Assembly (NCBI RefSeq): GCF_030408555.1
Contig: NZ_CP047048.1
Location: 1,426,001 to 1,490,000, forward strand
DNA length: 64,000 nt
Direction of reading: 5' to 3'
DNA from: Corynebacterium aurimucosum
Lineage (GTDB): Bacteria > Actinomycetota > Actinomycetes > Mycobacteriales > Mycobacteriaceae
The position numbers and the translations under genes were made by a program. Numbering within the stretch: the first letter of the stretch is position 1; each line of letters starts with the position of its first letter. The notes under the pieces are model-generated. The model did no database searches and had not been told where the DNA came from. It worked only from the letters and a program-made list of their open reading frames with translations. Positions 33,553 through 39,304 of the stretch are shown here, piece after piece.

Positions 33553-33626
33553 CGGACTATGGCGCAGTTTGGTAGCGCACTACACTGGGGGTGTAGGGGT
33601 CGCAGGTTCAAATCCTGTTAGTCCGA
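33553..33626 (+). tRNA. tRNA-Pro (anticodon GGG)
   Basis: A complete cloverleaf can be drawn: acceptor CGGACTA/TAGTCCG, D-stem GCGC/GCGC with a GG-containing loop, anticodon stem CTACA/TGTAG with loop CTGGGGG (anticodon GGG), T-stem GCAGG/CCTGT with TTCAAAT loop. CCA is not encoded. It reads proline codons CCC and CCU. Confidence 0.95.
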
Positions 33627-33844: not shown

Positions 33845-35452
33845 ATGGAATTGTTGTTGACCTACCTCGCTGTGGTGTTTGGCTGCGGCCTCATCGCGTG
33901 GGCAGTGCGCCTGCCTCCACTTATTGGATTTCTCGCCGCTGGCTTTGCGCTCAACGCCGGCGGAGTCGAGCATGTCGAAGCATTAAATCTATTCGCGGAC
34001 ATTGGCGTTACTCTCATGCTTTTCGCAATCGGGTTACGCCTCGATCTCAGGGCCTTAACTGATAAAGCTGTGTGGCTGACAGCCAGCGCACATGTACTCG
34101 TGATGACTCTGCTCGGAGCGGGCTTCATTACAGCACTCGGGGCTCTTGGTGTATTTGGGCCTACGAGCTTTTCGGTAGCTGTCAACATCGCCCTGGTACT
34201 GAGCTTCTCAAGCACCATCGTGGTCTTAAAAATCCTGCAGGACCGCGGCGATGAACAAGCCCTGTACGGAAATATCTGTATTGGCGTACTCATTATGCAG
34301 GACATCATCGCTGTTGCCTTCATGAGCATTCTCCGCGGGGAGCCGCCCAGCTTGACTGCCCTCTTGCTTGTACTCATCGTGCCGCTACTGGCATTGACAA
34401 CGCGCCGCTGGTACAAGCTCGGCCACGGTGAGCTGGGCGCACTATTCGGCATCGTGATGGCCCTTCTGCCTGGTTATGCTCTTTTCGAATGGGTCGGACT
34501 CTCGGGCAGTCTGGGGGCTCTCATCATGGGCGTGGTTCTCTCTCGCTCCCCTGGGGCGGAACAACTCAGCCATTCACTGTTCACACTCAAAGAATTGCTG
34601 CTGGTTGGCTTCTTCGTCAACATCGGCTTCCTGGGCCTCCCGACGTGGCAGCACCTCCTTGACGCCAGCCTGCTCCTAATGCTTTTGCCTGTCCAGGGAA
34701 TCGCCTACTGGGCCATCCTGTGGACACTAGGGCTGCGCAACCGTACTTCCGTCCTCGCGTCTTTGCTCCTGGCCAATTATTCCGAATTCGCGTTAATCAT
34801 TGCTGCCCTCGGGGTGGAAGACGGCTGGCTGAATCAGCGCTGGCTACTTTCATTGGTTCTCGCAGTATCCTTGAGCTTCGTCATCTCCGCCATTTTCAAC
34901 CCACAGAGCGTCTCGCGGGCCACGCACGTGGCCAAACGCTTACCTACGCGCCCACCGCACAAGATTCACCCGGAAGATCGTCCGATCGAGCTGGGGGATG
35001 CCCATGCATTGGTCCTTGGGGTCGGCCGCCTAGGACTTTCCTGTTACAAGGAGCTCACAGAGGTCTATGGCGCGAAAGTCTTAGGCGTGGAGCATGATCC
35101 AGCCCGGGTGCGCCACCTCCAAGAGCGCGGCTTCAATGTCGTGGAAGGCGATGCCACCGATGTCGACTTCTGGGAGCGTGTCAAGGACAGTCACCACATT
35201 GACATGATCATGCTTGCTATGCCCGCCCAGCACGCGAACGTCGACGCAGTCAAGGAGATCTTCGCCTCCGATATCAACCCCGAGGAATGCACCATTAGCT
35301 CGGTGGCAATGTACCGCGAGGACGTAGAAGACCTCGAGGAACTCGGGCTTAACGTCGTGGTGCATCTGCAGGACGGTGCAGGCGAATCACTGGCCGAACG
35401 GACCTTCACCGAAAACCAGATGCGGCGCCTGCGCCTGGCTGGTGAGCTCTAG
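33845..35452 (+). CDS. Kef-type cation:proton antiporter with TrkA-N domain
   Basis: 535 residues. About 12 membrane segments (residues 1-355) of the CPA2 antiporter type ('FADIGVTLMLFAIGLRLD', 'SFSSTIVVLKIL', 'GIVMALLPG', 'LLLVGFFVNIGFLG'), then a cytoplasmic linker and a TrkA-N/RCK nucleotide-binding domain (about 383-500) with a Gly-rich loop VLGVGRLGLSCYKEL and acidic GVEHDP. Such proteins exchange K+ or Na+ for H+, gated by NAD(H) or another ligand. The isolated gene has no ancillary KefF/KefG. ATG at 33845, no clear ribosome site. Confidence 0.85.
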   Translation: MELLLTYLAVVFGCGLIAWAVRLPPLIGFLAAGFALNAGGVEHVEALNLFADIGVTLMLFAIGLRLDLRALTDKAVWLTASAHVLVMTLLGAGFITALGALGVFGPTSFSVAVNIALVLSFSSTIVVLKILQDRGDEQALYGNICIGVLIMQDIIAVAFMSILRGEPPSLTALLLVLIVPLLALTTRRWYKLGHGELGALFGIVMALLPGYALFEWVGLSGSLGALIMGVVLSRSPGAEQLSHSLFTLKELLLVGFFVNIGFLGLPTWQHLLDASLLLMLLPVQGIAYWAILWTLGLRNRTSVLASLLLANYSEFALIIAALGVEDGWLNQRWLLSLVLAVSLSFVISAIFNPQSVSRATHVAKRLPTRPPHKIHPEDRPIELGDAHALVLGVGRLGLSCYKELTEVYGAKVLGVEHDPARVRHLQERGFNVVEGDATDVDFWERVKDSHHIDMIMLAMPAQHANVDAVKEIFASDINPEECTISSVAMYREDVEDLEELGLNVVVHLQDGAGESLAERTFTENQMRRLRLAGEL

Positions 35453-35673: not shown

Positions 35674-36597
35674 CTAGTTTGCCATACCGCTAAGGCTTCG
35701 CATGATGCCGCCAAATTCGATATCCATATACTGACTGAGGACTTCAAAAATGAAGTCCGAGTCATAACCACGCAATGGCCCCTTTGTGCTCAACATGGAA
35801 AGACCATGAGCACCCGCCCATACCGAAATAACTAGGGTGAAAAGCACCCACGGGGTGCGTGGTCCATCAACCTCATCGATAACCTCGCGCACAAGAGACA
35901 TAATGAAGCCAAAAGCTCGTCCAAACTCGCTAAAGTCGCGCTCGAGCTCGACCGCTTTGTTTGCATTCGGGAGGAAATTATCTTCGAATGACATGGGGAC
36001 GATTGGCCCAGATGCAATCTTGATCAGCGTCTCGAAACCTTGTGGGTCATACAGGGCATGTGAGACATACCCATAACCTGTGGCCTTAATCTTGGATACG
36101 GCACTAGCATCTTCAGGCAATGCAGCCACCTGACGGTAAATGAACTCATAGTTGATCTTGTCCAGATAGCGCTCAAGATAGTTAGCTAGTTCCTTATCAC
36201 TTTCAAACAGGTGTTCAGCCTCTTGAACGCTGAGGCCTGCTCGATTCGCAGCTCCGCCGATGTACAGTCCGGTTACACCACGATCAAGAATCTCCTCGAC
36301 AGCACCCCGAAGCAGCGCTGAACGCTGCTCTTCTTCTGTCGTGCGTGGAAGATCCTTAGCCTTTGTCAAAAGCGCTTCCGGCTGCTCCCCCACCAATCCA
36401 TAAGGAATGGTGCGTTCAATTCGCTCACCTCTAAAAAACGGGTAAAGACCAACGCTGAGAGTATCCATAACAGCACTAAACGTCTGCTTCTTGGCTGCTG
36501 GCGAAAGGTAGCGCAAGATTCCTTCAGCAGCGAGCTGCGTTACGCCGTGCAAATGCGAGAAGATAGACAACGCTGAAAGCAGAGTCCCCCTTTGCAT
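35674..36597 (-). CDS. C-terminal part of a tandem TetR regulator (separated by frameshift)
   Basis: As an open frame it gives 307 residues. Its first 70 residues (LSIFSHLHGVTQLAAEGILRYL onward) read as the end of a TetR ligand-binding domain; then a second complete TetR unit begins, with an HTH at about 92-135 ('VEEILDRGVTGLYIGGAANRAGLSVQEAEHLFESDKELANYLERYLDK') and a C-terminal ligand/dimer domain to the end. It is in the +1 frame relative to the upstream frame. The join lies at a run of five G (minus strand, 36586-36590). Whether it is translated on its own is doubtful because its apparent ATG is inside the other frame. Confidence 0.7.
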   Translation of the reverse strand: MQRGTLLSALSIFSHLHGVTQLAAEGILRYLSPAAKKQTFSAVMDTLSVGLYPFFRGERIERTIPYGLVGEQPEALLTKAKDLPRTTEEEQRSALLRGAVEEILDRGVTGLYIGGAANRAGLSVQEAEHLFESDKELANYLERYLDKINYEFIYRQVAALPEDASAVSKIKATGYGYVSHALYDPQGFETLIKIASGPIVPMSFEDNFLPNANKAVELERDFSEFGRAFGFIMSLVREVIDEVDGPRTPWVLFTLVISVWAGAHGLSMLSTKGPLRGYDSDFIFEVLSQYMDIEFGGIMRSLSGMAN

Positions 36598-37090
36598 CGA
36601 CCTCTCGGCCGCCAGATTCCCTTATAGCGTCTTCAGTCAGCTCAAAAAGCATCCGCATTATAGGGCACGTCTCGGCGCGCCCGCCTCGGTCACCAAAATC
36701 TTCCGCCTTCAGCCCCACCTGCGGCGTTGCGTGGACCGCAGTAAATGCTGCGAAGGCGGAAGGATCCTCAACCGCAAAAGAGAAATACGACAGAGCTGTG
36801 GCCCGGAGCTTGTCCACTGCAGTTGCGTTTTCAGGTAAGCGTTCTAGATGTAAATCAACTACTGAGGTCAATGCTTCATTGAGCGAATGCTTAGTAGCTT
36901 CAACAAGCTCAGCCTCAGATGCAAACAGTGCCCGTGCTTCCCCAAAAGGCACATCGACTTGATCTGCAACCTCCCGCAGGCGGACTTCATCAATACCCGC
37001 CTTGGCAATGACCCGGCCGGCTTGCTCAATAAGTAGCTGCCGAGAGGGGCGGTTACCGTGTTCCACATCTACTGAAGTAATCACGGTCAT
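36524..37090 (-). CDS. N-terminal part of a tandem TetR regulator (frameshifted end)
   Basis: 188 residues. The first 60 carry a TetR HTH ('AGRVIAKAGIDEVRLREVADQVDVPFGEARALFASEAELVEA'), followed by a ligand-binding helix set ('TALSYFSFAVEDPSAFAAFTAVHA'). After about residue 167 the frame runs into unrelated residues (SAFSVVYLLAFARRNAARC) and stops. Skipping one G in the G5 run at 36586-36590 restores continuous TetR sequence into the next frame, giving about 471 residues. It is a damaged or frame-shifting gene. Upstream lies a palindrome AGAATATTCT at 37149-37158, possibly its own operator. Confidence 0.7.
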   Translation of the reverse strand: MTVITSVDVEHGNRPSRQLLIEQAGRVIAKAGIDEVRLREVADQVDVPFGEARALFASEAELVEATKHSLNEALTSVVDLHLERLPENATAVDKLRATALSYFSFAVEDPSAFAAFTAVHATPQVGLKAEDFGDRGGRAETCPIMRMLFELTEDAIRESGGREVDAKGDSAFSVVYLLAFARRNAARC

Positions 37091-37234
37091 TAGCCTACCC
37101 AGGAATAGGTCAATTTTAATTCCATAAACGCAAGATAGGAAACTTTATAGAATATTCTCAGTTTCCTTCCTGGCCGCATCAGTCCGCAACTGAACCAAAA
37201 CAGGTTGAACTATACATTAGTGTAAAACTTATAC

Positions 37235-37323: not shown

Positions 37324-37530
37324 TTACTTCTGCTCATCGCCCTCGGGAGCCTCAGCACCCTGGTTGCCGATACGCTCATCAAGCTGGTCACGCACAGAGT
37401 CAATCTTATCTGCCTTGTCCTCGCCCAGCTTTCCCTTAGCCAAGTCTGCACCCTTGTCCAGTGCGCTATCCGAAATCTGCTCACCCTTATCGGTGTTCAG
37501 CGCATCCTTTGCCTTGTCAAAAATACCCAT
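37324..37530 (-). CDS. Rv0909-type (MT0933-like) antitoxin-family protein
   Basis: 68 residues, highly charged with a repeated Lys/Asp/Gly pattern: GIFDKAKDALN, KGADLAKGKLGEDKADKIDS, then an acidic tail ending GDEQK. This is the small family annotated as putative antitoxins in mycobacteria and corynebacteria. No partner toxin-like gene is adjacent, so toxin-antitoxin function is uncertain; CsbD-like stress-protein character is an alternative. GGAAGGACTG precedes the ATG. Confidence 0.7.
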   Translation of the reverse strand: MGIFDKAKDALNTDKGEQISDSALDKGADLAKGKLGEDKADKIDSVRDQLDERIGNQGAEAPEGDEQK

Positions 37531-38008: not shown

Positions 38009-39304
38009 ATGTCTTCGTCTCATTCCTCCCCTGATTGCCTTCCTGCCACGCGCCCTCGCGTCACCGCACCATCCCCCGTAGAGCGCGCTTCCACCGATGT
38101 GGGGTCGGTTTTTGGGCTTGTATGGCCGGGCAAGGAACAAGCTGCTGCGCTGGCCAAAGAAGACTCTGTGAGCAAGCGAAAGCTCATCAGCGGCCGGGGT
38201 TCTTCCCCTAACAGTGTTAGTGTGGCAGATAATCTAGCTGCACTGAATGACTTTATTGAGCGGGGTATGCGCGCGGACATCATCTACATCGATCCGCCGT
38301 ACAACACTGGTAAAGACTTTGTCTATCGTGACAACTTCCGACAGCGCCGCGATATGCGCTCAGAGCATTTTGGGCAGTGGCATGCAGAATGGCTTTCCAT
38401 GATGCTGCCGCGCTTAATCCTGGCGCGTGAGGTGCTTGCTGACGCAGGCTTCATCCTCGTGTCAATCGGCGAATCAGAATCGGCCCATCTACGCCTCCTT
38501 CTGAATGAAGTTTTTGGTGAAGATTGCTTTGCTGGCCAACTCATTTGGAAGAAGGGCGGGACTGGCAAGAATGACTCGAAGTATGCTGTACTAGAACATG
38601 AATACATCTTGTGTTACGCCAAGTCCCCAGCAAATCCTGGGTTCAATGTGGATGTAGAGGCGCAGACCTCGACCCGCTACAACCACAGTGACGAGAAGGG
38701 CAACTACTCCTTAGTCCGATTGGACTCTAAAACTTTGGGCTACCTACCCAGTCTGGACTTCCCCATCGTCGCCCCCGACGGCCGCGAGTACTGGCCCCAT
38801 CAACCAGAAGGAAAATCAAAGGTAGCTCGCTGGCGATGGGGCAAGGACAAGGTTGCTGAACACTACGAAGAATTGGTGTTCAGGCGTGGTTTTGTCTACA
38901 CCAAAAACTATGAAAAGAAGGGTGCACGACCTCGTTCCATCCTGGATGGGCAGCGATTCGGAGTCACACGCACAGGCCGTCGCGATGCCGAAGAAGCTCT
39001 CGGCATCACAGGTGTCTTCGACTTCCCTAAACCCGTACGGCTTCTCAAGCACCTCATTGCCATCGCCGGTGGGCCAGACGCGGTAGTCCTTGATTTTTTC
39101 GCTGGCTCGGGGACAACCGCTCAAGCCGTCGTCGAGCTCAACCGCGAGGACGGTGGCCATCGCTCTTTCCATTTGGTGCAGATTCCCGCCCCCACAGAGG
39201 CCTCCAGTGCGGCGCGCCAAGCAGGCTTCGACACGGTTGCAGATATCTGTCTCGCACGAGTTCGCTCACTCGATGTGCCCTTTGACCACTTCACCCTGGA
39301 CTAG
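38009..39304 (+). CDS. Type III Mod-like DNA adenine methyltransferase, without Res partner
   Basis: 431 residues. Beta-class order: motif IV IDPPYNTGKDFVYRDNFR (about 94-111) comes first and the SAM motif DFFAGSGTTAQAVVEL near residue 363 last, with a central target-recognition region. The stretch 'VWPGKEQAAALA' ahead of it matches Mod subunits of type III systems. At 431 residues it is shorter than many Mods (often near 600). No Res helicase-nuclease gene is adjacent: the neighbours are an antitoxin-like gene and an esterase. It would modify a short asymmetric site; the target cannot be read. No ribosome site before the ATG; translation may be leaderless. Confidence 0.85.
   Translation: MSSSHSSPDCLPATRPRVTAPSPVERASTDVGSVFGLVWPGKEQAAALAKEDSVSKRKLISGRGSSPNSVSVADNLAALNDFIERGMRADIIYIDPPYNTGKDFVYRDNFRQRRDMRSEHFGQWHAEWLSMMLPRLILAREVLADAGFILVSIGESESAHLRLLLNEVFGEDCFAGQLIWKKGGTGKNDSKYAVLEHEYILCYAKSPANPGFNVDVEAQTSTRYNHSDEKGNYSLVRLDSKTLGYLPSLDFPIVAPDGREYWPHQPEGKSKVARWRWGKDKVAEHYEELVFRRGFVYTKNYEKKGARPRSILDGQRFGVTRTGRRDAEEALGITGVFDFPKPVRLLKHLIAIAGGPDAVVLDFFAGSGTTAQAVVELNREDGGHRSFHLVQIPAPTEASSAARQAGFDTVADICLARVRSLDVPFDHFTLD

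Follow-up and report, generated by a model that had tools for sequence, protein, structure and literature searches.

Two overlapping reading frames in Corynebacterium aurimucosum are parts of one tandem TetR gene with its frame broken at a run of five G residues

The gene described here lies in a 64,000-nucleotide stretch of the Corynebacterium aurimucosum genome under study (G000; the stretch, positions G000:C1:1426001-1490000 of a chromosome of 2.72 Mb, is called the window). Both the list of open reading frames (ORFs) and the sequence itself show two frames that overlap on the minus strand, and the initial annotation of this DNA had proposed that they join, by a change of frame at a five-G run, into a single protein with two TetR units. 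The features concerned, with positions counted in the window, are as follows.

36524-37090, minus strand: N piece, an open frame listed as 188 amino acids, which holds the first TetR unit up to the break and then a short out-of-frame tail.
35674-36597, minus strand: C piece, an open frame of 307 amino acids, which holds the last helices of TetR unit 1 and the complete unit 2.
36590..36586, minus strand: run of five G, preceded by AAA, at the junction of the two frames.

The best protein match to the C piece (among 13 proteins at E ≤ 1e-10) was P0001, which is 471 amino acids long and 97% identical. By genome search, the N piece corresponds to residues 1-177 of P0001 and the C piece to residues 166-471, and each is 97% identical to this protein, so the proposed joining of the two frames is correct. 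The frame change was also found where it had been placed. A net frame discontinuity fell at the five-G run in four of six pairwise DNA alignments with relatives, and a multiple alignment with six relatives put it at the same position; in the remaining two pairwise alignments (L023 and L024), small gaps lay 5-21 bases before the run. In the predicted model of P0001, the run at 36586-36590 falls near the start of a helix formed by residues 166-188. Based on these results, the frames at 36524-37090 and 35674-36597 are two parts of one tandem TetR gene of ∼470 residues, with its frame broken at the G run. For annotation, this means that the adjacent "TetR fragments" at this site are to be counted as one broken gene and not as two, and the split itself is of little importance.

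The domain content of the two pieces was analyzed by Pfam and by structure prediction. TetR_C_33 (PF13305) scored 28.1 bits in the C piece, above its cut-off of 26.8, and 12.7 bits in the N piece, below it; TetR_N reached 13.5 bits in the N piece, below the cut-off of 24, and was not listed for the C piece. PF13305 is carried by P0001-P0012, one of which (P0011) is named "TetR-like C-terminal domain-containing protein." In the predicted structure of P0001, short helices occur where the helix-turn-helix (HTH) is expected in both units, and on structural comparison of the model both units match TetR structures, including the fold of the ligand-binding domain. In addition, a profile of the first half of the family aligns to that of the second half over 204 columns (hhalign probability 99.7, E 3.7e-25), and because of this alignment we conclude that the description as two TetR-like units in tandem was correct. 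Intact copies of the gene exist, and in these relatives two TetR units occur in one natural polypeptide, whereas in the window copy as assembled they do not.

The modeled fold of P0001 matches, along nearly its whole length, that of Mce3R (Rv1963c) of Mycobacterium tuberculosis (PDB 9b7y), which its paper describes as the first double TetR repressor to have its structure solved. The structure-match list was used for this positive match only and leaves room for other folds. The two proteins share 11% identity in the structural alignment. A PDB search with P0001 gave 22 sequences at E ≤ 10, and Mce3R was not one of them, nor was it among the best 60 of 140 for the family profile. A Pfam scan of nine neighboring genes detected no mce-type family, unlike the mce operon expected beside an Mce3R ortholog. 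The Corynebacterium family also differs from Mce3R in that similarity between its units 1 and 2 can be detected, whereas the Mce3R units are homologous to distinct subgroups according to the Mce3R paper; the window copy, unlike Mce3R, is broken. Single-unit TetR regulators (3on2, EthR2, and FadR) are chains of ∼200 residues with one unit, in contrast to the two units per chain of the Corynebacterium family. With Corynebacterium PF13305 proteins in general, the C piece shares a score above the TetR_C_33 cut-off, a likeness of family name only. TetR regulators are treated in PMC4482099 and PMC3511530. Among the open-literature matches listed, from a search mostly outside subscription papers, there was no title or abstract on tandem Corynebacterium PF13305 members, and among the literature matches listed there was no characterized member of the Corynebacterium double-TetR family. 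The locus points to a Corynebacterium double-TetR family that is Mce3R-like in architecture, with detectable similarity between its two units.

The distribution of this family was analyzed with P0001 as the query against 242 Corynebacterium genomes. A match at E ≤ 1e-20 was present in 32 of these, some of them less than full length, so the tandem arrangement, which the initial annotation had called uncommon, is not rare in the genus. Ten genomes contain a close ortholog (77-97% identity). Seven of these orthologs are intact, with open frames of 481-489 amino acids and no stops, and three (in G000, G124, and G154) are broken, each at a different site. The next 15 orthologs (37-42% identity) each consist of one open frame. 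Orthologs of the two nearer clades are therefore in a single frame throughout in 22 of 25 cases, and the lack of tandem orthologs, which would have argued for two separate genes, was not observed. The other seven matches are to more distant members, of which at least two (in G069 and G224, outside the 25 counted) look partial or split. In the multiple alignment, the copies from G124 (L039) and from a metagenome-assembled genome (L025) are broken at columns other than that of the G000 break; L025 and the G154 locus L041 give identical matches and for this reason are probably the same genome. Aligned relatives read straight through the junction site, and none of them has the five-G run there. 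G000 itself also contains a distant tandem paralog in one frame (a 499-amino acid frame, C1:2445421-2446755). As a separate observation, G061 and G114 each have two double-TetR family matches that lie near one another, which points to repeated duplication, and the G069 match is in several pieces.

We favor the view that the locus is a copy of a conserved double-TetR regulator whose frame was broken by a recent single event at the G run, and we give this a probability of roughly 0.6. The ratio of nonsynonymous to synonymous substitution rates (dN/dS) for the N part was 0.147 against both G012 and HMSC036D02, and 0.085 against DE0410, for which synonymous sites are near saturation. The corresponding values for the C part were 0.060 and 0.084, with the DE0410 comparison saturated, and those between the intact relatives G012 and HMSC036D02 were 0.094 (N) and 0.076 (C). 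Both parts thus still look constrained, as they would if the gene was kept until lately or is still kept, and therefore the break appears to be either recent or a consensus error.

To place this break among others, coding-like ORFs of G012 and G000 were compared in both directions. ORFs without a coding appearance (69 and 63) were removed beforehand, and shifts within the first 15% of the ORF length were counted separately, as ambiguities of the start codon. Mid-gene breaks were found for 8 of 446 G012 ORFs in G000 and for 6 of 449 in the reverse direction. Some rows in these lists are reciprocal, doubtful, or from repeated elements, and the census shows no more than that G000 lacks a strong excess of such breaks. 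Runs of exactly five G or C number 500 in 464 kb of G000 (61 in the window), and 24 runs are longer. From the census and the run counts, a single recent mutation is favored and a consensus error is still possible; we prefer decay (recent inactivation) over a sequencing slip as the cause of the break.

Several observations weigh against this view. The dN/dS of the N part (0.147) is above that of the intact pair (0.094), a small difference that is nonetheless compatible with relaxed selection. Start-proximal shifts (within the first 15% of the ORF) were more numerous in G000 (21) than in the reverse direction (13), and a cruder first census, which counted stretches of >60 bases out of frame, gave 18 of 159 in G000 against 7 of 164, mostly at gene starts. 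At least one other mid-gene break in G000 coincides with a five-G run, a position equally compatible with slippage in the cell and with slippage during sequencing. Among the other broken copies, the G154 genome comprises 240 contigs at 82% completeness and the G124 genome 40 contigs at 96%, so breaks there may be assembly faults. The species is represented by one genome, in the form of its assembly alone, with which a consensus error is compatible. Finally, the C piece has an ATG of its own (36597), from which a separate partial protein could be made.

The strongest alternative is an error of sequencing or assembly in the consensus at the homopolymer, with the gene intact in the living strain. 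We regard this as the less probable explanation, though one to be taken seriously. It would account for a single event at a homopolymer, for the constraint seen in both parts without other damage, and for the intact, near-identical protein P0001 known from elsewhere. When the N piece was used to search for records with the same break, three proteins were found at E ≤ 1e-5, and the tail of the window's N piece was in none of them; these records are clustered at 90% identity, which makes the absence a weak one. In two of the three (P0013 and P0014), the frame is left at a different place than in the window gene, and the third (P0015) comes from a 731-bp contig. On the other side, the G000 assembly is nearly closed (2 contigs, 100% complete), its mid-gene breaks are about as frequent as in the reciprocal comparison, and two of the eight breaks listed are plainly at G/C runs of five or more, of which there are 490 in the aligned coding copies of G000.

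It is also conceivable, although improbable, that, in this species group, separate frame breaks have repeatedly removed the regulator and that its loss is favored in some habitats. Breaks occur in 3 of 10 close orthologs compared with 0 of 15 in the next clade, a marginal difference (one-sided, about 0.05 by hand calculation), and the loss in G000 coincides with a nearby antiporter gene that was not found in seven sister genomes. Such a loss could be likened to that in another genus, in which mutations of mce3R turned up in resistance selections (PMC11667970).

A more distant possibility is that the locus encodes two working proteins, the C piece being translated from ATG 36597 and acting as a one-headed regulator or dominant partner. 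This ATG is in frame with the C piece and has a purine-rich stretch just upstream, and the C piece has kept a low dN/dS. In the aligned relatives, however, the upstream start and the C part share one frame, and therefore ATG 36597 looks fortuitous. In the case of Mce3R, expression of the second unit by itself was not possible (PMC11667970). We consider this highly improbable.

The initial annotation had offered four causes for the frame change, of which decay and a sequencing slip remain. A phase-variable switch, in which run length would vary between cells and turn the regulator on or off, would be in keeping with a break at a homopolymer and with the presence of both intact and broken alleles in the group. 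It finds no support in the tract itself, which is five bases long and one of many such runs in the genome and in the window; switching tracts are usually longer than this. Aligned relatives have no five-G run at the site, and the other broken copies break elsewhere, so we hold such a switch to be scarcely credible. Equally so is programmed or slippage-driven frameshifting that yields a full-length protein from two frames: the two overlapping frames do meet at a run, but the shift site is not conserved, aligned relatives pass through it in a single frame, and the single-frame state of 22 of the 25 nearer orthologs contradicts it.

Returning to the recent inactivation that we prefer, its consequences can be outlined by analogy with Mce3R. 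Intact relatives would form one chain in which the two TetR units pair with each other; double repressors of the Mce3R type are characterized by an asymmetric four-helix bundle within the chain. The two non-identical HTH heads would recognize an operator that is not palindromic, and the DNA would be released by a ligand in the core. If the break is a real mutation, as we infer, it would stop translation of unit 1 before its last helices, and the G000 strain would make no full-length regulator. The targets of the regulator, perhaps its own gene and the small gene upstream, would then probably be freed from control. The type of protein is already known, and the break most likely reflects gene loss of an ordinary kind, or an error in the sequence, and not a genetic switch.

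The start of the gene and its upstream region were compared with those of relatives, which brings in two further features.

37085-37102, minus strand: conserved block just upstream of the probable GTG start, from the upstream alignment.
37324-37530, minus strand: small gene of the MT0933_antitox family, the upstream neighbor in the same orientation, from Pfam and the neighborhood comparison.

A GTG at 37084 is kept in eight of the nine rows of the upstream alignment, and the ATG at 37090 is absent from all eight relatives in it. For this reason, the true start is probably GTG 37084; the limits of the open frame, 36524-37090, stand as first given, but its start probably does not. The strongly conserved block ends 7 bases before the GTG, and block plus start match once in G000. 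This block may act as an operator, or as the −10 box or promoter from which a leaderless transcript starts. Scans for terminators and promoters gave results close to chance, and at Rfam gathering scores the window contained nothing but one tRNA.

The MT0933_antitox-family gene adjoins the double-TetR gene in 14 of the 17 neighborhood sequences examined, which are not all independent (L023 and L026 have the same identities); among the remaining three, L039 consists of a short piece of a contig. A DNA methylase gene (38009-39304) adjoins the MT0933_antitox-family gene in opposite orientation in 12 of the 17, several of which have short flanks. On the other side of the broken regulator, between it and the tRNA (33553-33626), lies a KefB-like antiporter gene (Na_H_Exchanger/TrkA_N, 33845-35452, plus strand). 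This gene is in G000 only (one of eight genomes, the other seven being the sister genomes searched) and was possibly gained beside the tRNA.

Elsewhere in G000, a gene for a protein like NAD-binding 6-phosphogluconate/3-hydroxyisobutyrate dehydrogenases (L080:16780-17901, G000:C1:346780-347901) is broken and is in one frame in G012. The plasmid collection searched contained no match to the double-TetR gene. The second contig of the assembly, the 20,681-bp plasmid G000:C2, showed 100.0% identity over the 20,000 bp compared to two equally long plasmid records, one assigned to C. aurimucosum (NZ_CP068167.1) and the other to C. glucuronolyticum (NZ_CP068163.1), which reflects either a shared plasmid or a labeling mix-up.
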